DNA of 64,000 nt, from the NCBI RefSeq assembly GCF_002896875.1, contig NZ_CP023278.1, forward strand, positions 1,612,001 through 1,676,000, written 5' to 3'. The notes below the pieces were generated by a model. That model searched no databases. It worked only from the letters and a program-made list of their open reading frames with translations, and was not told the origin of the DNA. The DNA comes from Nostoc sp. CENA543. GTDB taxonomy: Bacteria; Cyanobacteriota; Cyanobacteriia; Cyanobacteriales; Nostocaceae. This document shows positions 987 through 61,132 of this stretch, in pieces (positions within the stretch are counted from its first letter, which is position 1; the number at the start of each line of letters is the position of its first letter). A program made the position numbers and the translations under genes.

Positions 987-2003
987 ATGTATAATGCAAA
1001 AGCAGCTTTGGGAAAAGCAAAAGTGCGTGTGGGTTTAGTTGGTACAGGATATGCAGCAAAACTACGAGCAGAGGCTCTACTGCAAGATCAACGTTCAGAT
1101 TTAGTTGCAGTTGCGGGAAATACTTTAGAAAGAACGCAAACCTTTGCTAAAGACTACCAAACAGAGGCGATCGCCCCTTGGCAAGATTTGATAAAAAGAG
1201 AAGATATAGAGCTAGTAGTGATCTCTACAATTAATAGTGAGCATGGAGCGATCGCCCGTGCCGCACTTCTAGCAGGTAAACACGTAGTTGTAGAATATCC
1301 CTTGGCCATTGATTTGGCTGAAGCTGAAGAATTGCTGGCTTTAGCAAAAACGCAAAAAAAATTACTCCACGTTGAACATATTGAGCTTCTAGGCGGACTG
1401 CACCAAGCCTTAAAGCAAAATATAGACAAGGTAGGGCATTTATTCTACGTCCGCTACAGCACGATTAACCCCCAAAACCCTGCCCCCCGCAAATGGACAT
1501 ATAATCATAATCAGTTTGGGTTTCCTTTAATTGGCGCGCTCTCTCGTTTACATCGGCTGACAGATTTATTTGGTGAGGTTTTTTCTGTCAACTCTCATCA
1601 AAGATTTTGGGAAATAGAATCAGACTATTACCAAACTTGCTTTTGTATGACACAAATTTGCTTTCAGAGTGGTTTATTAGCTCAAATAATTTACGGCAAA
1701 GGTGAAACTTTGTGGCAGTATGAACGTAAATTTGAGGTTCATGGCGAAAACGGCGGTTTAATTTTTGATGGGGATACGGGATTGTTTATTCAACATGGGC
1801 AAACTACAGCTATCGAGGTGGGAACTCGTTGGGGTTTGTTTGCCAAAGATACGAAAATGGTGTTAGACCATTTATTTGACGGTACACCTTTGTACGTCAC
1901 TCCAGAGGAAAGCTTGTATACCCTCAAAGTGGCTGATGCTGCAAAAAGAGCCGCAGAAACTGGCTTAACTATATTTCTTACAAATCAATCAAGTAGAAAA
2001 TGA
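987..2003 (+). CDS. bvdR: Biliverdin reductase (Gfo/Idh/MocA fold)
   Basis: The 338-residue NAD(P)H-dependent oxidoreductase reduces biliverdin to bilirubin. The N-terminal Rossmann motif is GLVGTGYAA (about residues 16-24). Segments such as HVVVEYPLA, LLHVEHIELLGG and RYSTINPQNPAPRKWTY match the cyanobacterial BvdR pattern (Synechocystis Slr1784) as I remember it, including the EHIELLGG core. In that setting the enzyme is linked to phycobilin metabolism. The reading frame extends upstream to a TTG at 939, but that part is translated repeat DNA, so the ATG at 987 is chosen. The stop overlaps the start of map by four bases, so the two are probably co-transcribed and translationally coupled. 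A generic Gfo/Idh/MocA dehydrogenase is the alternative. Confidence 0.85.
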   Translation: MYNAKAALGKAKVRVGLVGTGYAAKLRAEALLQDQRSDLVAVAGNTLERTQTFAKDYQTEAIAPWQDLIKREDIELVVISTINSEHGAIARAALLAGKHVVVEYPLAIDLAEAEELLALAKTQKKLLHVEHIELLGGLHQALKQNIDKVGHLFYVRYSTINPQNPAPRKWTYNHNQFGFPLIGALSRLHRLTDLFGEVFSVNSHQRFWEIESDYYQTCFCMTQICFQSGLLAQIIYGKGETLWQYERKFEVHGENGGLIFDGDTGLFIQHGQTTAIEVGTRWGLFAKDTKMVLDHLFDGTPLYVTPEESLYTLKVADAAKRAAETGLTIFLTNQSSRK

Positions 2004-44966: not shown

Positions 44967-47183
44967 CTATATTTTCCCCTGCAAACTAAAATAGCGGCGA
45001 TATAATTCACAACTGGGTACTACTTTATCTTTTAACTGTTTCACCAGTCCCATACTACTGAGTTTATAAATTGTAATTGGATCTAATGATATTGCCTCTT
45101 GAGAATTAATTACTATATCTAATGCTTTTGCTAATTCTGGTTGTTCTTGCAAGACAGCTTGATGTCGTTGTAAGTGAGATGAATAAATCCCGTTTGATGT
45201 AGCGGCTGTATCTAGGAATTGAGCAAAGCTAATTTCCTCACGACTCAAATGATAAATAGCCATGTGTACTAATGCGGGATGTCCTTCCACCATAGCCATT
45301 AAATCTGCTGCTTCTTGGCTATTATTCCAATTGAGTCCATAGCGTTCGGCTAACTGCTGTACTTGCTCAAGGGTAAAGTGAGTTAATTCAATTGGTAATC
45401 CTACATTGAATGGGGATTGTTTTAATTGCAGAGGTACATAAATTTCTGTTGAGTGAACTATAACTAATCTGAGTTTCTGCCAAAGGGATTCTCTTTTTGC
45501 TTCTTCAAACCATGAACGAAATAAAGGTAAAACATCTTTTGCCACTATAGGATGTTCAAAGATATATTGCACTTCATCTAAGGATAAAATTAAAGGAGTT
45601 TTGATTTGTTTTAATATATGATTGCGGAAATAAAGAGAACAACTAATTTTACTACCAATATCTTCATCCCAATAATCATCTAACTTAGATTCCAGTTGCA
45701 ATTGACGGGTAACGTTAGCACACAGCCAGCGCAAAAACCGATTCAAGTCACTTAAAATTGCATCATCAATTTGTTCTAGATTTAAACTAGCCGTCTGATA
45801 ATTTTGTCGAGTTGCATAGTCTAAAGTCCTTAGCAGTAAAGATGTTTTACCCATTTCTCTAGGTGCTTTGATTCTGACTAATGCGCCATTTTTTCTAATT
45901 GCCTCGAATACTTGTGATTCTACCGCAGTTCTTTCTATGTAAAATGGAGAATCAAGGGGGACTGCTCCACTAGGATAAGAGAGAGAATTAATTGCCGTTT
46001 CAGGATGATTGAACGTCGGGTTAAGACTATTGAGTGTTGGTAATTCAGTAATATTTACTAATAAATGTTGATGCAGCCAATCTTGATGAAATATTTTGGT
46101 ATAAATCGGATTTTTAACAATTAAATTTCCTTCAGATTGGGATACAAGACCAGATAAGCGCAATTCTAGATACTCTGGAGAATTCTGTACGGGAATTTTT
46201 CCCTGTTGTAAAATGTGATAGTATATTTGCAGTAATTGTTGGCTTTTGGGCGTATTGCGGAGTAGGCGATCGCGTATTGTTCTCAAATGTTCTGGTTCGT
46301 CTTGAGATTCCCAGTTATTAATAATTTGGGTGTGGACAATTTTTTCTACCCATTTGGCTACTTCATCCTCTTGATTTGGACAAGCATCTGGATGATGATT
46401 GCAATAATTAACAATTAGCCAACACAGTTTTTGCGTAAGAAATGGCTGTCCGTTAGTCCAATATAAAACCTCTTTTAATACTGCCTTGGGGTTGTCAATT
46501 TTTTCTGAGAATCCTTGTAATAAAGGTTCACTATCTTCTATTTTAAATCCTTGTAATTCAATCGCTCTACCAATATTAAACGGAGTAGAATAGTGTTTAT
46601 CTTGAATTAAATCTGAAGGTGAAGCTACTCCTAATAAAGCAAATGCTAATCTTTTGTAAGCTGGTTTGATGGCTCGATTTTCATAACAGTGTCGAATGAG
46701 GGCAAAAAATTCATCTGTAGAAAATTTTAACCCCAGTACGTTATCGATTTCATCGATAAAAATCACAATTTTCTGTTGAATTTGCGTCAATAAGACGGTT
46801 TCAATAAATTTATTTAAACACTGAATTGGAGATAAATCATCATGCTCTTTTAACCAACTACGGCGATTGATTTTGAGTTGAAACCCACTTACCAATTCTT
46901 GAATAATCCCGCCATACCATTGAGAAGCTGTAATTTGCTGACTACCTATCCCACTTAACTCAATCTCAGCACAAATAAATCCCTGAGTCTTTAGTTTATT
47001 CATCGTTCGGACTCGTAAGCTAGACTTACCCATTTGTCTAGCATTGAGAACATAGCAATATTCAAGAGCCAATAGACCTTCATAAAGTTCAGTATCAGCT
47101 TGTCGCACGACATAAGTAAGTGCATCAGGTGGGAGACTACCACCTGCTTGATACCGATAGGTGGTATTAAAGTTTGCAAACAT
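44967..47183 (-). CDS. Double AAA_35-type ATPase protein
   Basis: A 738-residue protein made of two AAA_35-like (PF14516-type) ATPase units. Unit 1 (about residues 1-385): [22 protein letters not shown], an atypical P-loop [10 protein letters not shown] (K53), Walker [14 protein letters not shown], and the [14 protein letters not shown] block. Unit 2 (about 410-738): [19 protein letters not shown]-loop [11 protein letters not shown], Walker [13 protein letters not shown] and [15 protein letters not shown]. Both P-loops lack the first Gly of the classic motif. The family is STAND-like and common in multicellular cyanobacteria, often with signalling domains; activity and trigger are unknown. 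Its units match those of the two neighbours. Confidence 0.8.
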
Positions 47184-47676: not shown

Positions 47677-48603
47677 ATGGCTACTCGTAAAATTATTCTC
47701 CATACTCTCAGATGTGATAAAGCAGAAGATTATTTTGGCGGCGATGAAACTCTTTTAGAAATCTTCACTGACGGACAACAGCGCAGTCAAATTAAAAAAG
47801 ATATGAAAGCGGGAGACACCTGGCTACTAGGGAAATCATTTAATTTTAGTCAGGATGCAACAATCAAGTTATGGGATGAATATAAACCATCATGGCGCGA
47901 TCCTAATTACTTTTTAGGTGAATTTAAGGTAGGTAGTCTGGATGTCAATTTTGGTATTGCTAAATTTACCAAAGGGGCAGATTATACTTTGACATACACC
48001 GTCACTACTGACCGTCAACCCCAAGTTCTTCCTCAGACTTCCTCTCATGTCACTATTGAAATACTTGATGTTTACTGTAGTAATGTAGAAAATCCTACCA
48101 ATGTAGACGATATTTACATTCTCGGTGGCGTGACAGTTTTTGATCCCCAGACATCTATATTGGATACAAAACAGGCCAAGCCTGTCTTAACTAAACCTGT
48201 TGGGATTAGCAACGGTCAAACTCAACCAATCCCTTACGTTGTTTTCGATGCTGATGTCAAAACTAACTCTGCCATATATTTAGAAATGGCAGCATATAAT
48301 GAGGATTTTACAAAAGATTGGAGTCAATACCAAGTCTGGCTGGGTATTGCAATGACGGCTATTCGGACAATAGTTAATACAGTGGCCATATTGATAGCTG
48401 GTGCTTTAGTAAATATTGTCTTAGTGGGACTGAATCAATTTGCAGGTTGGGACAAGGATGAAAGATTAGGTATTCAGACACACACAATTATGGTGCAAGA
48501 CCTGAAGCCTGGAGAAACTATTTATGACTGGAGGATGATGGAAACTGGTCTAGGTCGGTCTACTGGTGACTATAAAGTTAGATATAAAATTACAGTGAGA
48601 TAG
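47677..48603 (+). CDS. Unknown protein with two beta-rich units and a hydrophobic segment
   Basis: A 308-residue protein with no signal peptide. Residues 1-115 form a beta-rich unit (KIILHTLRCDKAEDYFGGDETLLEIF, then KLWDEYKPSWRDPNYFLGEF). A second unit (about 125-308) has similar spacing (VTIEILDVYCSNVENPTNVDDIYILGG) but is interrupted by a hydrophobic stretch (about 229-258: IAMTAIRTIVNTVAILIAGA and on). The pattern is C2-like or jelly-roll-like to the eye, without a recognised family. It lies on the opposite strand between AAA_35 genes and may be their partner; function unknown. Overall confident as a gene, not as to role. Confidence 0.6.
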   Translation: MATRKIILHTLRCDKAEDYFGGDETLLEIFTDGQQRSQIKKDMKAGDTWLLGKSFNFSQDATIKLWDEYKPSWRDPNYFLGEFKVGSLDVNFGIAKFTKGADYTLTYTVTTDRQPQVLPQTSSHVTIEILDVYCSNVENPTNVDDIYILGGVTVFDPQTSILDTKQAKPVLTKPVGISNGQTQPIPYVVFDADVKTNSAIYLEMAAYNEDFTKDWSQYQVWLGIAMTAIRTIVNTVAILIAGALVNIVLVGLNQFAGWDKDERLGIQTHTIMVQDLKPGETIYDWRMMETGLGRSTGDYKVRYKITVR

Positions 48604-48653: not shown

Positions 48654-50054
48654 CTAATTTAAATTCATTTGAGTCCGCAAAATCTCATTGAAATAATTAC
48701 GATATAGTTGACAACGAGGTTCTACTTCGTTGCCGACTAGCTTGATTAAACCCATACTCTGTAACTGATAAGCGGATAATGCTTCTAATTGCACTGGTTT
48801 ACTGGATGCAATTACTGTTTGGAATGCTGCCAAAAGTTTTGGTTCTTGTTGCAAACTCAACCAATATTCTCTGAGGTGATGGCGATAGATACCTGCATCT
48901 GTTGTAGCTTCAATTAATAATTTTTCTAGGGTAATGTTGGGATAACTAATCAGGTGAGAAAATGCCTGTTGTAAAAGATAAGGATGACCACCCACTAATT
49001 GCATTAATGGTTCTACAAAAGTAACACCTTTGGCTAATCCATATTGGGCAGCAAATACTTGCACTTCTTCTTTAGTTAATTCTGGTAATTCAATGGGTAA
49101 GCCAACATTAAAAGGTGATTGATTAATATTGAGGCGGATATAAACATCGGTGGCGTGAGCGATGATTAAACGCAGTTTTTTCCAGTTTTGACGACTTCTA
49201 GCTTTCTCATACCAAGAACGTAATAATCCGAAAAAGTCTTCGTAAACTTCAGGATAGGGGAAAAGTACATCGACATCATCTAGACATAAAACTAGAGGAC
49301 TATCAGCATCAGTGAGCAGATATTCTTCTAAATAAGTCGTGCAACTGACTTTAGCACCAATACCTTCTTCATCCCAATATTCATCTATGTGATTAGGTAA
49401 GCGTAGTTCTCGACTGAGATTAAGACAAAACCAACGTAGAAATTTATTCAGGTTGGTAAAGTGAGTTTTGCGATCTGCCATCTCCAAACTAAAGCTAACT
49501 GTGCGATAACCTTGCTGTGCTGCTTTCATTAATAATCGCTCTAGTAAGGAAGTCTTACCCATAAGTTTGGGTGCTTTGATTCGCATTAGAGAACCTGGTT
49601 GCAGCAGAGTTTCATAACATAGTGATTCTAGGGGAGAACGACTTACATAAAATTCTTGACCTGAGACTAAATAGGGAGGAGCAACAGTTTCTAGTAAGTT
49701 GCTATTATGATTTTGACTGTTAGCGGTGCTGGTTTCTGGAACAGATAAGTAATCTGTTGTCATCAACTGTTGATCCCAGTATTTTTGCTCCCAGGTACGT
49801 TTCAATGCTTCCTTAAAATTACTCTTTCTGACTTTTTCTCCCAAAGAATCTGTTAATAATTTCCATAACTTGGGGGCAACATCTTGACTAATATAGCTGG
49901 TAGAATACTGATGTTGAGCGGCAATTTGATCATACTCTTCTCTTGCCCACGAACCTTTGAGGACAATGATTTCGACATCGCTTAACTTTCTCGAAAACTT
50001 TGTAAACACTGCTTGATTAGCGATGTTAATTGCTGCGTCCAAGTTAAAAGTCAT
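48654..50054 (-). CDS. AAA_35-type ATPase with N-terminal vMAP-like domain
   Basis: A 466-residue protein. The N-terminal about 95 residues (DAAINIANQAVFTKFSRKLSDVEIIVLKGSW, then HQYSTSYISQDVAPKLWKLLTDSLGEKV) look like the HTH-type domain found at the start of vWA-MoxR-associated and related cyanobacterial proteins. The ATPase unit (about 125-466) has the P-loop IKAPKLMGKTSLL and Walker B LVLCLDDVDVLF, with VGGHPYLLQQAFSHL near the end. It is closely similar to unit 2 of the 738-residue neighbour (FLRW-C-N--R-L-L motif with DEYWDEE). It lies 33 bases downstream of the giant kinase gene, in the same direction, and is probably co-transcribed with it. Confidence 0.8.
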   Translation of the reverse strand: MTFNLDAAINIANQAVFTKFSRKLSDVEIIVLKGSWAREEYDQIAAQHQYSTSYISQDVAPKLWKLLTDSLGEKVRKSNFKEALKRTWEQKYWDQQLMTTDYLSVPETSTANSQNHNSNLLETVAPPYLVSGQEFYVSRSPLESLCYETLLQPGSLMRIKAPKLMGKTSLLERLLMKAAQQGYRTVSFSLEMADRKTHFTNLNKFLRWFCLNLSRELRLPNHIDEYWDEEGIGAKVSCTTYLEEYLLTDADSPLVLCLDDVDVLFPYPEVYEDFFGLLRSWYEKARSRQNWKKLRLIIAHATDVYIRLNINQSPFNVGLPIELPELTKEEVQVFAAQYGLAKGVTFVEPLMQLVGGHPYLLQQAFSHLISYPNITLEKLLIEATTDAGIYRHHLREYWLSLQQEPKLLAAFQTVIASSKPVQLEALSAYQLQSMGLIKLVGNEVEPRCQLYRNYFNEILRTQMNLN

Positions 50055-50087: not shown

Positions 50088-53000
50088 TTATCTATAAAAT
50101 TCAATCCAACGACTGTTAAAAATTAATTCGTAAATCCGGTTGTGGACTTTTAAAGCACCTTGTTCCTTAATTACCAAGCCGGATAAAAGCAGTTCTCGTT
50201 CGTCTAGACTATCCACAGAATTGACCTGTCCTAATTCTAGGATCTGCTGATATAGGTCTAGCATTTTAGTGGGTTGACGATCGCCTTTGAGGATGCGATC
50301 GCGTATAGTTTTTAAATGTTCTGGTTCGTCTTGGGCTTCCCAATCTGCGATAATATTGCTATGAACTAGGTTTTCTACCCATGCTTTTTCGGTTTTCGCA
50401 GGGATAGAAGACGCAGCAGTGCGGATCATTTGGCAAATTTTTTGAGTTAAAAATGGCTGGCCATTAGTCCAGAATAAAACTTCTTTCAGCACTGCTTGGG
50501 GGTTAGTCACCTTGTCAGTCAATCCTAGCAAAAGGGGTTGCGCTTCGTCCATTTGAAAGCCACGCAGTTGAATCGCTTGACCAATATTAAAAGGAGTTTT
50601 GCGATAGTCGGTGATTAAATCACCAGGTGTAGCCACTCCAAATAAACCGAAACACAATCGTTGATACTCTGGGTTGATATTGCGTTGATTATAGCAGGAG
50701 CGAATCAGGGCAAAAAAGTCATTGACAGAAAAATCTAAACCCAACACACAATCAATTTCATCGAAGAAGATAATAATTTGCGGTGGTACATCACTATCTG
50801 GTAATGTCACTTCCCGTAACAAAACTTCTTCAAAGAACAGACTCAATCGCTGTACAGGAGAAATATCTAGTTTATCTTGCCACCAGGCTTTTAAATTCAC
50901 CTTCCCTAGTAAATCAAAACTTTGCCAAAGTTCCACAGCCAGACCTTTGTACCACTGATCTGGGGTAATATTTTCATTGCCAATGCGAGTCATATCAATG
51001 GCTACGCAAGCGATACCCTCTTGTTGTAAATGGTGCATCATCCGCACCATGAGGCTAGATTTACCCATTTGTCTGGTGTTGAGGGTATAACAAAACTCGC
51101 CACTTTTTAAAGCTTTGTAGAGATAACGATCAGCCGATCGCACTACATAAGTAGGCGCATCAATTGGTAAACTACCACCTACTTGATAATCATAATCGGA
51201 GGTTGATTCACCACTTTTGAGCAGAGCATTTTCAAATTCCAATTTGGCTTGAGTGGCTTTGAGAATTTCTAGAGTTTGTGTAAGTTCTTGGGTACGTTCT
51301 TGTACTTTTTCTTCGAGTGTGGCATAGAGGCGGGAATTTTCAATGGAGATGGCAGCTTGGCTAGAAAGAATATTTAAGATTTGGACACGATCTGATGTGA
51401 ATGCTCCAGTGACTAAATTATTTTCTAAATAGACAATACCGCTTAATTTGCCTTGGGTGAGGAGAGGTGTACAGAGAATAGATTTAGGCTGAGTGGTGAT
51501 AATGTAGGCATCACGGGTAAATTGTCCGTCTTGAGTAGCATCATCCAGCACTACATTTTCTTGGGTGTGGGCGACGTAGTTGATGATAGCAGATGATATT
51601 AGGGGTTTTTGTGTGGATTTATCTAGTGAATCTACTGCTATGGATTGTATTTTAATGTCAGTTGTGGTGGCGATCGCTTCTATCACCCACTGTTCTTGAG
51701 AATACAGCAACAAAAAGCCTCTTTGCGCCCCTGCATTCTCAATCATCATTTTCATTAACTTCGCCAACAATTTATCAAGAATAATTTCTTCAGCTAAAGC
51801 TTGAGAGGCTTTAATAACTGTGGTTAAATCAAGTATTTCTCCATCACTTCCAGTTGTCGAGATAGTGGGGCTAAAGCTTTTAGTTATTCCTTGGTTTGTA
51901 TTTATAGTAAGATACTGGGGGTATTCTGTTTCTAATTGTTTTACTTTGGCTCTAGCTCCCCAAAGAGTGCAACAATGGTGTGAATTTTTTAAATATAACT
52001 GACCGATTTCTTCCCTACCAATAGCCAGATAAAATTCTGCGGCTTTTTCATAAGCCAGTGCTTCTTCATGAAGAAATTCATATTTTTTTGCACCTTTTAT
52101 AGCTTGTTGATAAAGTTCTTCCGCTTGCCAATTTTTTCCTAAAAAACGAGCTTTTTCGGCAGCGACTAAATCATATTTGTGTTGAAAATTTTCTGGGCAA
52201 TGACTAGCCCATAATTTCATACTGTCCTGATTTTTATTTACTTGCTTGAGTAATTCTTTGTGCTGCTCATCGTTACTTTGATGACAATGGGCAATAAATG
52301 CAAGAGAAGAATAAAAATTATATTGAGGACTAACTAAAAAACCACTACAATCTTTTAGATATTTCTGACATTGGATAGCATTTTCAACAGCTTGCGTATA
52401 ATTTTTAAATAAATAGAATAGATAATTCTTGCCGAAATAGTAAATAAATAATAGCCAGTTATTATGCTCATCTCGATATTTTTGGATAGCTTGGGCTTCT
52501 AGTATTTGAGAATTACCAATTAATAAGCTATCATAGTTATCTTCAGTGATTATATTTGTGACAATATTTTGGCAAATCTCTATGTAATTTTTAGAATATT
52601 CTTGATTGAATTTATCAATTAATTTATGATATTTTGCATAATCTATCTCTAACTGTTGCAGATTACATCCTCCAAAAAATCTGATGAGGCAATAGTCCAT
52701 AGAAATATAGCAAACATATTCATTATTGCCTGTATCTATACCTTGTTTAATAGTATTTAATAATTGTTGTTGTGCTGCTTGTTTATTTATCAGTTCTTTC
52801 CAGTGCCAGATAAAAGCATAATATGAGTGCATCACTAAACACTCTGAACGGCGACTAATGGATTTCTCTAATAATTTGAGAGCCATCTTACCAAACTTAT
52901 ATCCAGAATCAATATCATTGATTAATCCACACAGTAGCATTCCATAGGAACTATAAATACCAGGAGCCTGGGAAGGATTATTATATTTAATACAAATATT

Positions 53001-55868
53001 CAGCTGAATTAAAACAATTTCAACAAATAAGGCAAAATTTGTTGTCCATGTTGCACTCATCATAGTTTGCAAGATTAATATAACCCCTATTTGATAAGGG
53101 TCGTCCATCATAGGTAAATCAGCCAAGTCTTCAATAGACCTTTCTTTTAAAATACTCCTGATGCTTTGTTGTTCCTCTTTAATCCTATTTTCTACTTTGA
53201 AATTTTTAATAACATGGTTAGATATTTTAATGTTTAATTGCCGTAATACTTCTAAGGCAACATCAATAGCTTTGTGGAGTTGAAACTGAGCAAAATAAGA
53301 TAAAATTTTTAATTCGTATACTTTGATTTTATCCAATAAATCCTGAGATGATTGCTCAACAATTTTAGATAGGAAATCTATTTGATCAAATTTACTATTT
53401 AAGTAGAGAGCTTCTAAAGTCTCTACATGAAGTTCCAAAGTGAATTGATAATTATATTGCCAACTATCTGATGCCAGTAGTTTTAATCCAGTTTCTAAAT
53501 ACCTCAAAGCTGTATCATAAGCTGTTGATGCTTTTGCTCTCTTAGCAGCCTGCATATTTAATCTAGCTAACTCGTCTTTTTCTGATTTTTCAACAATCAG
53601 TTGAGAACCTTCATTAATTTGGTTAACAATATCAAATATTTTCTCTTCTAATTTTTCTTCTGGACTGCTTTTAATTAATAAGCGACCTACTTGTAAATGC
53701 ACTGATTTTTTTTGCTCATGGGGAATTAAGCAATAAGCTGCTTGTTGTACTCGGTCGTGTAAGAATTTATAGAGAATATTTTTGGATAATTTAGGTTGTA
53801 AATCACCAGATACTTCCGAAACACTAATCATTGATTGTTCATAATTCCAAATTAGTGTAATTTTGTATTCATCATTGAGGGGAACAATTAATCCGGCTTG
53901 GATTGCTGGCTGTAATTTTGTAGCTGTAAATGTTGGAGAATTTTTATTAACTAATGAGAGAACCTCTAAATCAAATATATTACCGACACAAGCAGCTAGC
54001 TTCAGAACATCTTGAGTTTCCGGTGGGAGGTTTTTAATTTTCCCCACCATTAATTCCACTACATTATCAGTAATACCAACTCGTTTTATTTGTTCAATAT
54101 CCCACTGCCAGCATCCCTGAAACTTGTTAAACAATAAAAGCTTATCTCTATATAGAGATTGAAGTAATTGATTTAAAAAAAATGGATTGCCACTAGTTTT
54201 ATTAGCAATTAACTCTACTAAAGAAGCTGCTTCTTCTGTGGAACATCCCAGAGTATGAGAAATTAATTGATTGATGTGTTCAATCTTTAGGGATTGAAGA
54301 CTGATATAACTTGTTTTTGCTTTTGCATGATTAATTTGCTCCAGGGTAATCATTAAAGGATGTGTAGGACTTACTTCATTATCCCTATAAGCTCCTATGA
54401 TTAGTAAATATTGACTTTCTGGATCTGTTACCAGTAACTCAATTAACTTAAGAGATGGTAAATCCGCCCATTGTAAATCATCTAAAAATATCACTAAGGG
54501 GTGTTCTTGTGTGCTAAAAACACGAATAAATTTTTGAAAAAATAATTTAAATCTATTTTGAGCTTCTGTTCCTCCTAATTGCTCAATAGCAGGTTGTTTA
54601 CCAATTACCTGTTCTAGCTGAGGAATCACATCAATGATGATCTGAGCATTCGGTTCTAAGCTTGCTAAGATTTGCTCTGTCCAAATTTTTAACCTAGCTT
54701 CGGATTCACATAATAGTTGACGAATTAAATCCTGAAATGCCTGTGTAATTGCTGCATAAGGAATATCTCGCTTTAACTGATCGAATTTACCTGTAATAAA
54801 GTATCCTCGCTTGCTAGTAATAGGCTTGTGGATTTCATTAACTAAAGCAGATTTACCAATACCTGAATAGCCAGAAAGCAGTATCATTTCAGTATTACCT
54901 TGGCAAACTCGCTCAAAGGTTGTTAATAACTGGATGATTTCTTGTTCTCGTCCGTAGAGTTTTTGAGGAATATGAAACTTATCTGATACGTCTTGACTAC
55001 CTAAAGGAAAGTCATAAATTTTTCCCTGAGTTTTGAGTTGGTGAAGACAGTTTTTTAAATCCGCTTTAATTCCCAACGCACTTTGATATCGTTCCTCTGG
55101 AGTTTTCGCTAATAATTTCATGACAATATTAGCTACTGTTAAAGGAATCGTGGAATTTATTTCATCAGGTCGCTTGGGATATTGTGCTATGTGAGCATGA
55201 ACTAATTCTATTGGGTCATTAGTTGCAAAAGGAAGTTGATTAGTTAACAGTTCATAGAAAGTGACACCTGTAGCATAAAAATCACTTCGGTAATCTATAC
55301 CTCGGTTCATTCTACCGGTTTGCTCTGGGGCAATATAAGCTAAGGTTCCTTCTAATTGATTAATACTGCAAATTTGACGATTTTCTTGAGGGAGACTAGT
55401 GGAAATGCCAAAATCAATGATTTTTAGTTGTCCTGTTTTCTGGTTATAAACTATATTGAATGGGTTAATATCTTTATGAATAATATTAGCTGCATGAATA
55501 GCTGCTAAACTCTCGGTAATTTTAATAGCAATGCTCAAAAATTTTTCTAAATTCAACCTTTGTTTTGATATGAGAATTTTTAATGATTCTCCTCCAAAAT
55601 CTTCTAATAGCATTACTAAACTATTTTTATATCTTCGCAAATCATAAGCTTTAATAATACTTTCTTGGTTGATAGAACGAGTAATTTCATACTCTTGTTT
55701 ATATCTGCTTAGTTCGGAGGGAGTCGGATAATCTTCCTTCAGAACTTTAAGAATAATAGGTCGATTTTCCAGTTTAATGATACCTCGATAGATTAATGAG
55801 GAAGCACTTTCATATATTTGTTCATTAATCTGGTATTCATTTTGCAGTATATCTTGATAATCAGGCAT
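50088..55868 (-). CDS. Ser/Thr kinase - AAA - GAF multidomain protein ending in an AAA_35 unit
   Basis: A 1926-residue protein. Domains in order: Hanks-type kinase (about residues 10-275; [11 protein letters not shown] catalytic loop, [29 protein letters not shown]), AAA_16-type ATPase (about 300-600; [11 protein letters not shown] near 332, [12 protein letters not shown]), a long helical TPR-like region (about 640-1310), a GAF domain (about 1345-1510), a coiled coil, and an AAA_35 unit (about 1557-1926; [41 protein letters not shown]). Nostoc relatives of this layout usually finish with a histidine kinase, which is absent here. It is likely a large signalling switch; the trigger is unknown. 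Confidence 0.88.
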
Positions 55869-56053: not shown

Positions 56054-57058
56054 TTAAGTAGTGCTGAGGGGAATATACGGATAGGGAGAAGCCACAAATT
56101 TTAGTTTTTTCTGCTGCCAGTCTTCAGTCTCTATCCTCTGATCTTTATCTTTGTATCTTTCAGGATAAAATGGCAGTTCGATGTGACTTTTTCTTGTCCC
56201 ATTTTGGGCTGTTTCTTGCGCTCCAGACCATCTTTGAATATCTTCTTGTTTCAGGCTAAATTCAGAAGGTCTAGGAGGATAGCCTAGAGTCACTTTTGTG
56301 TAGGGGGGTCTAGCTGGATAACCAGTTTGGGAAAGGTCTACTCTACTAGCATAAAAAGTATCCCATGATACATCTAAAGCATATTCCCAAATTGTTTCAT
56401 AGGTGCTTAAAATAGACCTCCAAAGTTGTTTCCATTGATTTCCGTCTTGATAGTATACCTGCCCACTTAATAGGAGAGATAACGATATTGAACCATAACT
56501 TACATATTCAGGATGAATTAAATATTCATCTTTTTTGTCTGAGTCAATGATCTTTTTACGTAATTGCTGGGATTTTATAGGCGTTAACTTCAAGTTTCCT
56601 GTATGATTTTCCAGCCAATAGGTATCAGGGATGATATTGTAAGAATTAAATATTTCTCTGACTAACTCTATTTGTGTTTTTTGTGCAGAGGTTTGAATTG
56701 TTTGGTCGTCTAGCCATGTACATGACATAATCTGAGAAAGTTGACGACATTGTAATAAAAACCTAACTGCGGAATATCTTGGATCATCAGTAGTGACAAA
56801 TTCTTGGTCAACTTCTGTTCCTGCTGTGGGTAAATTATTCTCGTCAATTTGATAGTAGGCAATGAGGTCTTTTTTAGAACCATAGACTAATTTCTTTTTT
56901 GTACTACCGAATTCTTCTGCGATCGCCAGTATTTGAAACAATGTTTCTTCTGGATCTAAAGATTCATTTTTCCTGACACTGACTGGATGATGTGATACAG
57001 GAGAATTGGGAAACAAATTTTTCAAATTCTCCAAATGTTCTCGTGTAAATGTGTGCAT
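56054..57058 (-). CDS. Protein of unknown function upstream of the kinase island
   Basis: A 334-residue hydrophilic protein starting MHTFTREHLENLKNLFPNSP. No signal peptide, membrane helix or known motif is visible. Features are a Tyr/Pro-rich stretch (GYPARPPYTKVTLGYPPRPS, about residues 258-277) and a C-terminal end PYPYIPLSTT. An AAGGAAAA ribosome site precedes the ATG at 57058; a TTG at 57076 is not preferred. It is 45 bases downstream of the amidohydrolase gene, so the two probably form an operon. Its role in the YcaO neighbourhood is unclear; it is too large and too ordinary in composition to be an obvious peptide precursor. Confidence 0.6.
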   Translation of the reverse strand: MHTFTREHLENLKNLFPNSPVSHHPVSVRKNESLDPEETLFQILAIAEEFGSTKKKLVYGSKKDLIAYYQIDENNLPTAGTEVDQEFVTTDDPRYSAVRFLLQCRQLSQIMSCTWLDDQTIQTSAQKTQIELVREIFNSYNIIPDTYWLENHTGNLKLTPIKSQQLRKKIIDSDKKDEYLIHPEYVSYGSISLSLLLSGQVYYQDGNQWKQLWRSILSTYETIWEYALDVSWDTFYASRVDLSQTGYPARPPYTKVTLGYPPRPSEFSLKQEDIQRWSGAQETAQNGTRKSHIELPFYPERYKDKDQRIETEDWQQKKLKFVASPYPYIPLSTT

Positions 57059-57103
57059 TTTTATTTTCCTTGACAAATAGCCAGATAATTCAATCAGAAA
57101 GCA

Positions 57104-58189
57104 TTAGTGTAAACTGTAAAAATGGAGAGGGTTATCCCAAAGAATCTTGTGGATTGTTTCTTGAGGTAACTGATTTTCCAGTTCTAGAAGCCGATTTACA
57201 ATGTCCGGCTGATGATCCATATGGGGATAATCAGAGCCGAAGAAAAAGTTACCTGCTCCAATGTACTCGATAATTTCTAATAAGCAAGGTTCAGAAGGTT
57301 CAATGGCAATAAAACATTGGCGGCGAAAGTATTCTGAAGGCGGCATTTTGATGTGATCTTTCACTTCAAAATATAAATTTTTGTATTCTTCATCTAGTCG
57401 CCAAAGCCAATAAGGAAGCCAGCCACAACCAGACTCTAAAAAACCAAATTTTAATTGTGGATGACGTTCTAAAACTCCGCCTTCAATTAACGCTAATAAA
57501 GCCATCATCTGTTCCATTGGATGGGAACAAGCGTGCATAGCAAAACGAGTATGAAATCTATCTGCACCTGTAGTTGGTAAACGGCTATGAGTTCCTTCAT
57601 GAATTCCCACCGCAATATTTAATTCTTCGCAGGCTGTCCAAAATGGTTCATAGCTGCGATCGCTGAGTATTCTACCTTTGACGGGGTTGGGACGTAAACA
57701 GATGGCTTTCCAGCCAAATTCAGCAATGCGGTGTAATTCTGACACCATTTTTTCTGGTGCATGAAGATTAATTGCTCCGACTCCTTTTAATTTGTCTGGA
57801 GCATAACTACAAAATTCTTCATATAGCCATGTATTGTAGGCTTGGGTAAAAGCTCCTACAACCTCTGGAGACATACTATCAATCGCAAATAGCCATAGTC
57901 CGTAAGTGGGATAAATAAAGGCGATATCAATCCCCATTTGTGTCATTGCTTGCAGGTGAGATTCGGCATCATAGCGGTGAAAATAGGCTTGGGGGTGAGC
58001 TTGCATCATTTGGCGATCGCCTACTGTTCTCACTTGTTGCGATATCTTATTTACTATGTCTTCTCCTTGAATTTTCATGTCTAGCGAGGGTGCATAGTGC
58101 CTAAATTCAGGTGCAAGGTATTTTCCCCACATCTGCGGCGGTTCAATTACATGGGAATCAGCATCAATAATCTTGTATCCATGCAGCAT
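57104..58189 (-). CDS. Amidohydrolase-family (amidohydrolase 2) metal-dependent hydrolase
   Basis: A 361-residue TIM-barrel hydrolase. The N-terminal motif IIDADSHVIEPPQMW supplies the first metal ligands (D11-x-H13). Others are GIHEGTHSRL, HACSHPMEQMMAL and FFGSDYPHMDH, with the metal Asp. Family enzymes are decarboxylases or hydrolases of aromatic and heterocyclic acids. The frame extends upstream to 58381, but that part reads intergenic repeats (PNSPFPIPHSP), so ATG at 58189 is chosen, though it has no clear ribosome site. It lies 571 bases downstream of the YcaO gene, on the same strand; a joint pathway is possible but not shown. Confidence 0.8.
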   Translation of the reverse strand: MLHGYKIIDADSHVIEPPQMWGKYLAPEFRHYAPSLDMKIQGEDIVNKISQQVRTVGDRQMMQAHPQAYFHRYDAESHLQAMTQMGIDIAFIYPTYGLWLFAIDSMSPEVVGAFTQAYNTWLYEEFCSYAPDKLKGVGAINLHAPEKMVSELHRIAEFGWKAICLRPNPVKGRILSDRSYEPFWTACEELNIAVGIHEGTHSRLPTTGADRFHTRFAMHACSHPMEQMMALLALIEGGVLERHPQLKFGFLESGCGWLPYWLWRLDEEYKNLYFEVKDHIKMPPSEYFRRQCFIAIEPSEPCLLEIIEYIGAGNFFFGSDYPHMDHQPDIVNRLLELENQLPQETIHKILWDNPLHFYSLH

Positions 58190-58361
58190 ATTATTTGGGG
58201 AATGGGGAATGGGGAATGGGGAATTGGGAATTTTACGCAGTTTAAAATCAGCCCAATAGGTGTCTTGACTTTTCACGGGATCTGGAAAACCCCTCTCCCA
58301 ACCTCTCACGCCAGTTGCTACAAGTCGGGCATTGCCTGCACAACGCACTGGCTCCCCTATA

Positions 58362-58532
58362 AGGCTACGGTGTACACACAAGTCTTATAACCTTGTCCCA
58401 CATTGTTTTGATCCCCCTAAATCCCCCTTAAAAAGGGGGACTTTGATTTTAGTTCCCCCCTTTTTAAGGGGGGTTAGGGGGGATCAAGCCACATTCTGCA
58501 CTCAGCAAAAAGATGTGTGTACACGGTAGCCT
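58362..58532. repeat. Outer inverted-repeat element with AGGCTAC/GTGTACACACA ends
   Basis: AGGCTACGGTGTACACACA (58362-58380) and its near-complement TGTGTGTACACGGTAGCCT (58514-58532) face each other with one mismatch and enclose an inner element. The right arm is also the edge of the dispersed repeat copy B. Confidence 0.7.
58408..58487. repeat. Inner inverted-repeat element with TTGATCCCCCTAA ends
   Basis: TTGATCCCCCTAA (58408-58420) and TTAGGGGGGATCAA (58474-58487) enclose CCCCCTTAAAAAGGGGG and CCCCCCTTTTTAAGGGGGG hairpins. It is 80 bp, nested within the outer element, and resembles the 47.4 kb element. Confidence 0.75.
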
Positions 58533-58759: not shown

Positions 58760-61132
58760 TTACATCCACATGGGATAGGGATTGAGTTGTGCTTCTGTAA
58801 GCGGCTGTTGTAACCAACCCATTTTCACGGGGACATCATAAAGTCTGCCTGCACCTAAGCGTTTCCACATATGGCGCATTCCTGGTACAATCACTTTAGC
58901 GACATTGAGGCCAATATCAGGGCGAGTCTGATCTAGAACGAGCATTTCTAAACCATGCTGTTCCACAATTTTTTGACATAGCCTGACATCTTCAAGAAGA
59001 TCATCGCTGGCTAGTTGGGGATAATCTGCATAGACTTTGGGAACACTTTGAGCGTCGGGAAGTAGATAAGGTTGATTGGAGATATTTGCAGATTTCCACC
59101 ATTCCACAGCAAGGCGATCGCTAGATGGGGGATACTGGGTACTACCATCCGCGTTAGTCACTAATACATTCGGCAGAATTTGGTTCACTTCTGTTAAAGC
59201 TCGGCTAATGGCTAGCTTGGCATCAAAGTGAACGCCGTAACCTAAGATAATATCCTCTACATCTCTATCCGTTCTGCGACTAATGGCCGCAAAAGCCGGA
59301 ATGTTGAGATCACTAGTAATATCTATTACCCACAATTGTCTGTCAAGAGTTTGATAATATTTGTTCAAAGTTTGAAAATAAGGTTCATTAAAACTATTTA
59401 AATCTACTTGATGTTTTGGCAGCCGATTATACCACCACAACGCTACACAATCCCTTTCTACGAGTTCCATAAACCCCTGGAGAATGGCTTCTTCGAGGGT
59501 ATTACCTGCGGCGCAGCCGTTGGAGTCTGCCCAACAATCCCTCTCTCCTGACTGGGGATAGCCATAATAACAGTAGGCAGTAGGCAGATATTTAAATTCC
59601 TGATGAGTTAAAGACCAAACTGGTGTCCAGTCAATTTCTCTGGTGGTATCAAAAGGTGCAGGAACTTTTTGAAACCAACCTTGACAATCAACATTCCATT
59701 GTTCTCGGTGCTGATATTGAGTAGGGCTAAAATTCATACAATCATTGGGGTGAATTGCTTTGTCGCCCAACTGTTCATAACTGCTTTTGAGTCTGATTTC
59801 ATCTCCCTGAAACACCCCAGAATACCTTTCAATCGCTTCACAAAAACCACTAGCTTGGGCTTGGGTATCGGTTCTACCTTTACCGGCACTTCTACCGCCG
59901 ATATTTTGGCGTAAACTACCTAAATCATCAAAAAGGCTTTGAAAGTGATGCTTGGCTATGTATGTGTGAGTTAAGCCATTCCCTGGGATTTTGCTGAGTT
60001 CTCGAACAATACCTGTGATGGGGCTAATATGATGGGCGTATTTCTTTAAAGTTTCCTGTGGTGAACAAGAACGATGTCCGCCATCTGCGGTAAAAGTCTT
60101 CTGACGAGATTCTAAAACAATTGGCGAGGGCTGGTGATTTGGTTCACCGCAACTATGACATTGGGGACGCTGTATCACGGTATGGTTTTGGGTTTGGAGA
60201 GTCAAGGTGTCATAGGTGATAAGACTTTGATGCAAGGCAGGGGGGCAGGGAGCAGGGAGTAGGGGGGATTTGGTTGGAACTGAACTTTGTCCCGTTATGC
60301 TCGTACCATTGATGGTTGACTTTTCTCCCTTGCTCCCTGCTTCTTCATTTCCGCCTTGAATAATCCATTTGAAAACCTCTGTCGCTATCATTCCGAGTGC
60401 GGTTTGCACTGTAGCATTGAGGAATCCTAGAGGTGGGGATAGGGAAATCTGTTTATGTCTTTGAAGGTAACTAGCGACTGGGCGATTATTTCTTAGACGG
60501 TTAGCGAGACATTCCCAACAAGCTGTTTTTTGGGGGTGAAATATCGGCCCTATCCAAACTATCGTTCCCAGAGGATTAGCTAGTAGCCACGGAGATGAGG
60601 CTTGTTGATTAAATGCTGCTAGTTGGGGGTGGAGGTAGTCGTCAGTCAACACGACGGTGATATCTCCGGTTTCTGCGACTGGGATATCTAGGGATTTGAG
60701 GAGAGAAATTAATTCATCGGTGGGAAGAGAACCAAATGCTTGAACTGCAACTGTAGTTGATTGCAACCTTTGAGCAGCTACGATGGGGGGAATATGGAGA
60801 TGATGACAGAAAATGGCTAAAGGCGATCGCTCGGATTCATCTTCTAGATAACCCCGTTGTTCCATGTGGAATAGGGCGTATTGGGCTTTGATGCTGATGT
60901 TGAGAACATTCTGAAAAAATTCTGAATTTTCTGGGTTGGTGGGTAGTAGTTCTAGCTGAATGATATCAATGATTTCGTCAACGCTATACTTACCTTCTTT
61001 GATGAGAGAAGCAAGAAGAAATGAGAGGCGATCGCTCAAGCAAATGGATTCTCTCTCAGATATGATAAATACTTGGTCTGGTTCTATAGTTTCAACGGTA
61101 TAGCAGGACTTGAATTTTGGTTGATTAATCAT
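58760..61132 (-). CDS. Fused ocin-ThiF-like / YcaO cyclodehydratase (TOMM-type)
   Basis: A 790-residue protein. The N-terminal half resembles the ocin-ThiF-like leader-binding/E1-like partner (about residues 1-345), with zinc-type pairs CWEC (about 203-206) and CHSC (about 324-327). The C-terminal half is a YcaO domain (about 370-790): SGFCEAIERYSG, EAILQGFMELVERDC and AISRALTEVNQILPN supply the ATP/Mg residues. It ends NPYPMWM, a variant of the proline-rich C-terminus of azoline-forming enzymes. Such fusions (TruD/PatD-like) make thiazoline/oxazoline in peptides. A segment at about 262-298 is repeat-derived. No precursor, oxidase or protease gene is seen beside it. Confidence 0.85.
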   Translation of the reverse strand: MINQPKFKSCYTVETIEPDQVFIISERESICLSDRLSFLLASLIKEGKYSVDEIIDIIQLELLPTNPENSEFFQNVLNISIKAQYALFHMEQRGYLEDESERSPLAIFCHHLHIPPIVAAQRLQSTTVAVQAFGSLPTDELISLLKSLDIPVAETGDITVVLTDDYLHPQLAAFNQQASSPWLLANPLGTIVWIGPIFHPQKTACWECLANRLRNNRPVASYLQRHKQISLSPPLGFLNATVQTALGMIATEVFKWIIQGGNEEAGSKGEKSTINGTSITGQSSVPTKSPLLPAPCPPALHQSLITYDTLTLQTQNHTVIQRPQCHSCGEPNHQPSPIVLESRQKTFTADGGHRSCSPQETLKKYAHHISPITGIVRELSKIPGNGLTHTYIAKHHFQSLFDDLGSLRQNIGGRSAGKGRTDTQAQASGFCEAIERYSGVFQGDEIRLKSSYEQLGDKAIHPNDCMNFSPTQYQHREQWNVDCQGWFQKVPAPFDTTREIDWTPVWSLTHQEFKYLPTAYCYYGYPQSGERDCWADSNGCAAGNTLEEAILQGFMELVERDCVALWWYNRLPKHQVDLNSFNEPYFQTLNKYYQTLDRQLWVIDITSDLNIPAFAAISRRTDRDVEDIILGYGVHFDAKLAISRALTEVNQILPNVLVTNADGSTQYPPSSDRLAVEWWKSANISNQPYLLPDAQSVPKVYADYPQLASDDLLEDVRLCQKIVEQHGLEMLVLDQTRPDIGLNVAKVIVPGMRHMWKRLGAGRLYDVPVKMGWLQQPLTEAQLNPYPMWM
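60238..60344. repeat. Intergenic-type G-rich repeat inside the YcaO fusion gene
   Basis: GCAGGGGGGCAGGGAGCAG units at 60238-60268 face CTCCCTTGCTCCCTGC at 60325-60341, enclosing about 55 bp. The same repeat is common between genes here (8185-8215, 61230-61258). It encodes about 36 low-complexity residues (Gly/Ser/Thr/Pro) between the two domains, in frame. Confidence 0.7.

Follow-up and report, generated by a model that had tools for sequence, protein, structure and literature searches.

The closest described relatives of the protein treated here are the HstK-type hybrid Ser/Thr-His kinases (cbSTKIII) of Anabaena/Nostoc, in which, according to the available text of PMC2176072, a kinase domain, an AAA_16/STAND part, a helical region and a GAF domain are followed by C-terminal HisKA and HATPase_c domains. 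The gene in question lies in a stretch of 64,000 nucleotides of Nostoc sp. CENA543 (contig NZ_CP023278.1, positions 1,612,001 to 1,676,000), hereafter the window, and encodes a giant kinase with the same front part and an AAA_35 ATPase unit in place of HisKA and HATPase_c. Judging from sequence comparisons, we consider it about evenly balanced that this kinase is the regulatory hub or sensor of an NHLP-like locus for a thiazole/oxazole-containing (TOMM) ribosomally synthesized and post-translationally modified peptide (RiPP), with a pair of AAA_35 ATPases, here called A and B, as its output.

The locus resembles the NHLP-Burk TOMM clusters, as far as the accessible parts of PMC2887384 describe them, and the family TIGR03903 in having a fused SagD-type cyclodehydratase, a precursor with a C-terminal Cys, Ser or Thr, and a large Ser/Thr kinase whose AAA_16 part is similar. 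The same parts of that paper state that the NHLP-Burk species lack close homologues of the transporters found in other NHLP loci. In contrast to those clusters, the present loci are cyanobacterial, their precursors reach about 400 amino acids (aa), an amidohydrolase is present, the kinase ends in AAA_35, a histidine kinase or SpoIIE, and the scores stay below the cut-offs of TIGR03903, TIGR03793 and TIGR03795. Compared with two-component systems and phosphorelays, the A-type ATPase also ends receiver-PAS-A proteins and is thus found in the output role of a response regulator, whereas the fusion has neither a phosphohistidine nor a receiver between sensor and output, and A and B are both P-loop ATPases of one Pfam family. 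STAND and ORC ATPases (SSO1545, Apaf-1, NLR NB-ARC, Cdc6) share with the model of B an AAA core and, behind it, a winged-helix-like end, but differ from the two-partner arrangement of A and B. No description of the fusion, the A-B pair or the kinase-YcaO locus was found in open-access literature searches, and the word 'kinase' is absent from the main text of PMC4603692, PMC12455567 and PMC11583998 in the portions available.

Results

The kinase is encoded by an uninterrupted reading frame with zero internal stops. Kinase-AAA_35 frames of full length are also present in other genomes, which rules out an artefact of assembly or a frameshift. The motifs HKD...N, DFG and APE of the kinase domain and the Walker motifs of both ATPase domains, all of which have catalytic roles, are found in the protein. 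An original prediction, made from the letters of the window, had proposed the layout of the hybrid Ser/Thr-His kinases with a complete AAA_35 unit instead of the histidine kinase, and Pfam and the alignment of paralogues agree with it. Sixteen paralogues of the same genome align with the protein as a single piece that starts near residue 10 and stops at residues 1524-1558 (41-48 % identity). A profile of their tails hits the protein as far as the coiled linker (1477-1545, 63 bits), with just one other hit, of 1.5 bits, at 837-906. The 7.2 Mb genome has 17 further giant kinase-AAA_16-GAF paralogues altogether, the seventeenth matched as two pieces.

An H-box pattern of histidine kinases is present in 13 of the 16 paralogues and was not found in the window kinase by pattern search, and no match to HisKA, HATPase_c or SpoIIE was obtained within the 1926 residues at E 0.1, including residues 1510-1926, where a histidine kinase would have spoken against the prediction. 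The AAA_35 match spans model positions 4-329 of 331 and is above the curated cut-off, and the two motifs quoted in the prediction are located at residues 1596-1605 and 1698-1710. With HisKA and HATPase_c replaced by AAA_35, according to Pfam and the paralogue-tail profile, the expectation that the output bypasses a response regulator within this protein likewise stands. The fusion had also been called unusual, and this view has to be given up: with a frame length of at least 1850 aa as a proxy for the kinase-AAA_35 fusion, at least 48 of the 243 genomes sampled from the order have an AAA_35 match inside such a frame, and all 38 A-ended proteins from the retrieved loci (L numbers below) used for the A-B count do carry a kinase domain. 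Relatives of the AAA_35 part as such occur in 209 of the 243 genomes (E 1e-20).

By score, the AAA_35 domains of the genome form two groups: the five A domains reach 88-107 bits and the five B domains 417-494 bits, and every A adjoins a B. Over this genome and 14 more, a B is found within 12 kb of 28 of 35 A domains, where several A may share one B, whereas 2000 random placements gave a mean of 0.5 and at most 5. Among 52 giant kinases, 27 of the 38 A-ended ones have a B within 12 kb as opposed to 1 of 14 others (Fisher p 6e-5). When the count is restricted to loci with YcaO or the precursor, the numbers are 14/21 and 1/14 (p 6e-4), or 13/18 and 1/14 (p 3e-4) when L215, L233 and L236, which were chosen by A tail or precursor, are left out. 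The sole non-A kinase with a B nearby (L173) has a free receiver-PAS-A gene. A and B are also fused in one protein, as in the window (Table 1), and the nucleotide-binding residues are kept: the Walker A lysine in 76/76 A and 48/48 B, the Walker B aspartate in 76/76 A and 47/48 B.

Other A proteins of the genome seem, by eye, to be associated with WD40 repeats in L100, with coiled coil in L099 and with transmembrane stretches in L101; the heads of their B partners differ, a weakly Cro-like one among them.

The A-type ATPase is not confined to the fusion. In seven loci (L050, L051, L053, L054, L057, L066, L173) the kinase has a histidine kinase end, and behind it come first a small receiver gene and next the gene for a protein of 726-735 aa that begins with a receiver and finishes with an A-type AAA_35. 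All five of these proteins that were scanned with Pfam have the order receiver-PAS-AAA_35, and a sixth scanned protein, in L052, has the layout GAF-AAA_35 and follows a kinase frame that lacks GAF, which is probably a split fusion. A receiver within 1 kb accompanies 4 of 6 kinases ending in a histidine kinase, on the same strand and 7-85 bp downstream, as against 1 of 38 A-ended and 1 of 7 SpoIIE-ended kinases. No receiver was found in the window among the own-genome matches listed (150 of 178 candidates scored). Because seven loci with a histidine kinase end carry the receiver-A gene, A can be regarded as an output reachable either by phosphorelay or by direct fusion, and the kinase-A fusion looks like a short-circuited phosphorelay.

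In a tree of 91 kinase-STAND-GAF regions, built by FastTree alone, the window kinase belongs to a 34-member clade with support 100. The loci of this clade hold YcaO and/or the precursor family, except L046, of which the upstream side is missing at a contig end; L061, L215, L233 and L236 owe their locus label to the precursor and have no full YcaO in the retrieved stretch. The tails comprise 24 AAA_35 (including L046), five histidine kinases and five SpoIIE. Pfam scans of representative tails gave SpoIIE in L166 and L184, HisKA/HATPase in L169 and PAS in L204, while L195 is cut by the retrieved stretch; the remaining non-A tails were assigned by motif. Parsimony counts at least five tail changes within the clade and at least 13 across all tree members with a tail label. 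Following this tree, the end module of the YcaO-locus kinases is repeatedly swapped. YcaO-linked kinases are also found in several other clades.

The model of the B protein (predicted local distance difference test, pLDDT, 79) consists of an N-terminal helical head (5-98), a low-confidence linker (96-138), an AAA core and a winged-helix-like C-terminal end. The head is described here as helix-turn-helix (HTH)-like from its pattern of five helices. The nearest folds are NLR NB-ARC proteins, SSO1545 and ORC/Cdc6 ATPases, and with a P-loop core and a C-terminal winged helix the modelled B has the features that define STAND NTPases. Sequence searches against solved structures gave weak matches or none. 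The idea that the B head belongs to VMAP was set aside; no link is given in the parts of PMC7159879 available. As AAA_35 is listed among the accessory domains of cyanobacterial sigma-70 factors in the accessible text of PMC11119718, a transcriptional output of B would fit.

Around the kinase, five genes follow one another on one strand in the order YcaO, amidohydrolase, 340-aa protein, kinase and 466-aa AAA_35 protein. The gaps between them measure 378, 27, 185 and 33 bp (Table 1). The N-terminal part of YcaO is a leader-peptide-binding domain (TIGR03882, 151 bits, cut-off 37), and a SagD-type YcaO with this part, both above their cut-offs, marks a TOMM (YcaO azoline) cluster. The order from YcaO to kinase recurs in L041-L045, L047, L048 and L058. 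It is kept with extra genes interposed in L060, L059 has a short precursor relative in the precursor position, and the locus of Argonema (L064) retains YcaO, amidohydrolase and kinase. The downstream, same-strand B of the window is also seen in L041-L048. In a high-scoring set of 40 YcaO places, hand-picked from the upper list (the own genome, G077, G094, G164 and some lower entries were passed over), a giant kinase lies within 15 kb at 32 and an amidohydrolase within 12 kb at 35. Some of the misses are close to contig ends (L162, L168), and others are seemingly real (L191-L194, L196). The strand of YcaO is that of the kinase for 34 of 35 linked kinases in both YcaO sets, the second of which is considered in the Discussion. 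The 308-aa plus-strand protein occurs within L041-L065 in L041 and L048 only, and its membership in the locus is doubtful.

Table 1. Features of the window around the giant kinase and domains of the kinase protein
Feature	Position	Strand	Remarks
A-type and B-type AAA_35 in tandem (natural A-B fusion)	44967..47183	-	738 aa
Family-less protein between B and A-B fusion	47677..48603	+	308 aa; no Pfam or NCBIfam match
B-type AAA_35 partner	48654..50054	-	466 aa; 467 bits (Pfam)
Giant kinase, A-type AAA_35 tail	50088..55868	-	1926 aa; ATG start
Kinase domain (Pkinase)	residues 13-262		134 bits (Pfam)
AAA_16	residues 303-491		157 bits (Pfam)
Helical region	between AAA_16 and GAF		
GAF	residues 1364-1509		55 bits (Pfam)
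Coiled linker	residues about 1519-1555		
AAA_35 (PF14516)	residues 1565-1917		107 bits, cut-off 27, E 1e-30
Candidate RiPP precursor	56054..57076	-	340 aa; TTG start, internal Met at 7
Amidohydrolase (PF04909), conserved locus member	57104..58381	-	probable start at internal Met 65
YcaO cyclodehydratase, SagD family	58760..61132	-	TIGR03604, 264 bits, cut-off 219

The candidate precursor contains RQLSQIMSCTW at 111-121 and GYPPRPSEFSLKQEDIQRW at 265-283, and its C-terminus is SPYPYIPLSTT. Its family, A1, is present in 17 of the 243 genomes, and the members mostly end in PYPYIPLS[STC] or the shorter PYIP..[STC]. The terminal residue is S, T or C in 35 of 36 open reading frames (ORFs) labelled by the A1 profile, of which 14 are profile seeds and one locus is counted twice; the exception is in L183. 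Further precursor-like ORFs were chosen by their C-terminal pattern and are not independent evidence for it. Profile comparison connects A1 with the 166-237-aa proteins of other loci (99.7 % probability; three sequences common to both sets) and these with short NHLP-like proteins (97 %). Four short precursor relatives reach 40-50.7 bits against TIGR03793, below the family cut-off of 50.9; six other relatives scanned (122-404 aa) gave no NHLP match, and the window precursor matched neither TIGR03793 nor TIGR03795 at E 1. In the partially available PMC12455567, Ser10, Gln11 and Trp17 of MprE7 are proposed to contact the YcaO enzyme, and S114, Q115 and W121 in the conserved helix of the window precursor share their spacing; Ala14 of MprE7 is matched in most A1 members and not in the window, and Gln7 is unmatched. 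It is likely, as far as these profiles tell, that the A1 family consists of elongated, NHLP-derived precursors with enlarged leaders. A structural model of the precursor (pLDDT 59) had no PDB match at E <0.001, and nothing was built on it.

Several further genes were seen in the related loci. L059-L061 and L310 have a radical-SAM-like gene that separates the precursor from the kinase, and L064 and L310 have a methyltransferase (names read from sequence for L059-L061 and L064); these may be extra tailoring genes. L310 (NC_019727.1, 60100-80757) is on the mobilizable plasmid pCAL6303.01 of Calothrix PCC 6303 and holds B, YcaO and the kinase-A fusion, and by annotated names additionally an IS1634 transposase, the methyltransferase, a 237-aa precursor candidate and the radical SAM gene. 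In L203, the frame starting at 1614 is a 120-aa ORF near another YcaO gene that ends in CCCCCPCCTCT and is a striking candidate RiPP core.

Discussion

In the scheme that we prefer, the Ser/Thr kinase together with the GAF, helical and STAND parts would sense a signal that alters the nucleotide state of A. This step would be direct in the fusion, and in the sister loci it would pass through a phosphorelay of histidine kinase, receiver and receiver-PAS-A. A would then contact the homologous B ATPase and hand over a nucleotide-dependent state, and B would alter transcription through its HTH-like head, most likely that of the precursor and YcaO genes. The contact between A and B, its direction and its target are inferred from gene association and from the model of B. 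Taken more widely, A and B may be a general cyanobacterial signalling pair in which A is reached by fusion or by receivers and an HTH-headed B comes next, so that the giant fusion would be a two-component system minus the phosphorelay; we offer this extension tentatively and think it rather less probable than not.

A number of observations weigh against the scheme. No B is found within 12 kb of 11 of the 38 A-ended kinases, and while 24 of 38 B genes have an A nearby, the other 14 do not. The place of B varies (n=27), with 18 upstream on the same strand, seven downstream on the opposite strand and two downstream on the same strand. A tree-corrected independent-pairs test of A with B went in the same direction, with 3.3 pairs compared to 0.2, and was not significant (p 0.25). 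The head of B matches no Pfam HTH family or effector-associated domain above cut-off, and DNA binding is inferred from the modelled helices. YcaO loci without the kinase exist, as in a second, mostly more distant YcaO set the kinase is present at 3/17 and the amidohydrolase at 4/17 places, three further loci without a full YcaO being left out of the count. The NHLP likeness of the 340-aa family depends on intermediates, and the direct profile comparison of A1 with the short NHLP-like proteins gave a non-significant 20 % (unrelated control 0.2 %). An earlier idea that B occupies the place of the receiver was dropped, being weakened by the varied positions of B.

The kinase could instead be a component of the TOMM pathway that phosphorylates or holds the precursor/YcaO complex, the C-terminal module tuning the kinase and B being a separate, general STAND protein. 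Giant kinases stand beside YcaO in several separate clades, and residues 303-663 are matched by TIGR03903 (TOMM kinase/cyclase), although the 140 bits are far under the cut-off of 706. We regard this explanation as unlikely, since the tie of B to A-ended kinases, the receivers directly behind four of six kinases with a histidine kinase end and the receiver-PAS-A proteins all point to a signal output and not to a structural part. The exchange of tails raises another question, namely whether the AAA_35 end is a neutral recombination product, similar linkers behind GAF letting paralogous ends exchange in the absence of a dedicated A-B pathway. The number of tail changes and the many giant paralogues in the own genome would suit such a process, whereas the conserved Walker residues, the fact that B follows the A tail and the use of A as output of receiver proteins speak against it, and we give neutral exchange the least credence of the explanations considered.

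The STAND/NLR-like fold of the B model brings to mind a third explanation, in which A and B are a conflict or defence switch, a STAND-type alarm beside the RiPP locus that, once activated, would make the cell kill itself or would restrict phage. A-type ATPases are also present on plasmids (41 records), and the kinases of PD-T4-6 and Mad6 in PADLOC match the kinase domain. However, the 25 PADLOC matches listed of 33 are all in or near the kinase domain with none past residue 320, as would be seen for any Hanks kinase, B and YcaO gave zero PADLOC matches, and the kinase-A, B and A-B proteins of the window have no nuclease, TIR or protease domain in Pfam. A defence role thus seems improbable to us, and a sensor kinase with the A-B pair as its output is still the explanation that we favour.

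These results suggest that bacteria use a form of paired signalling that has not been described so far. The abundant and unexplained AAA_35 family of cyanobacteria would be given a definite function, that of a signalling output that can be exchanged, and A and B form a partner pair that can be tested. Giant sensor kinases are linked to a RiPP-like locus, the precursors of which seem to carry leaders of unusual length. Additionally, the exchange of histidine kinase, phosphatase and AAA_35 ends in one clade, together with an output that occurs both fused and bound to receivers, may serve as a natural experiment on how the output of a signalling protein is replaced.

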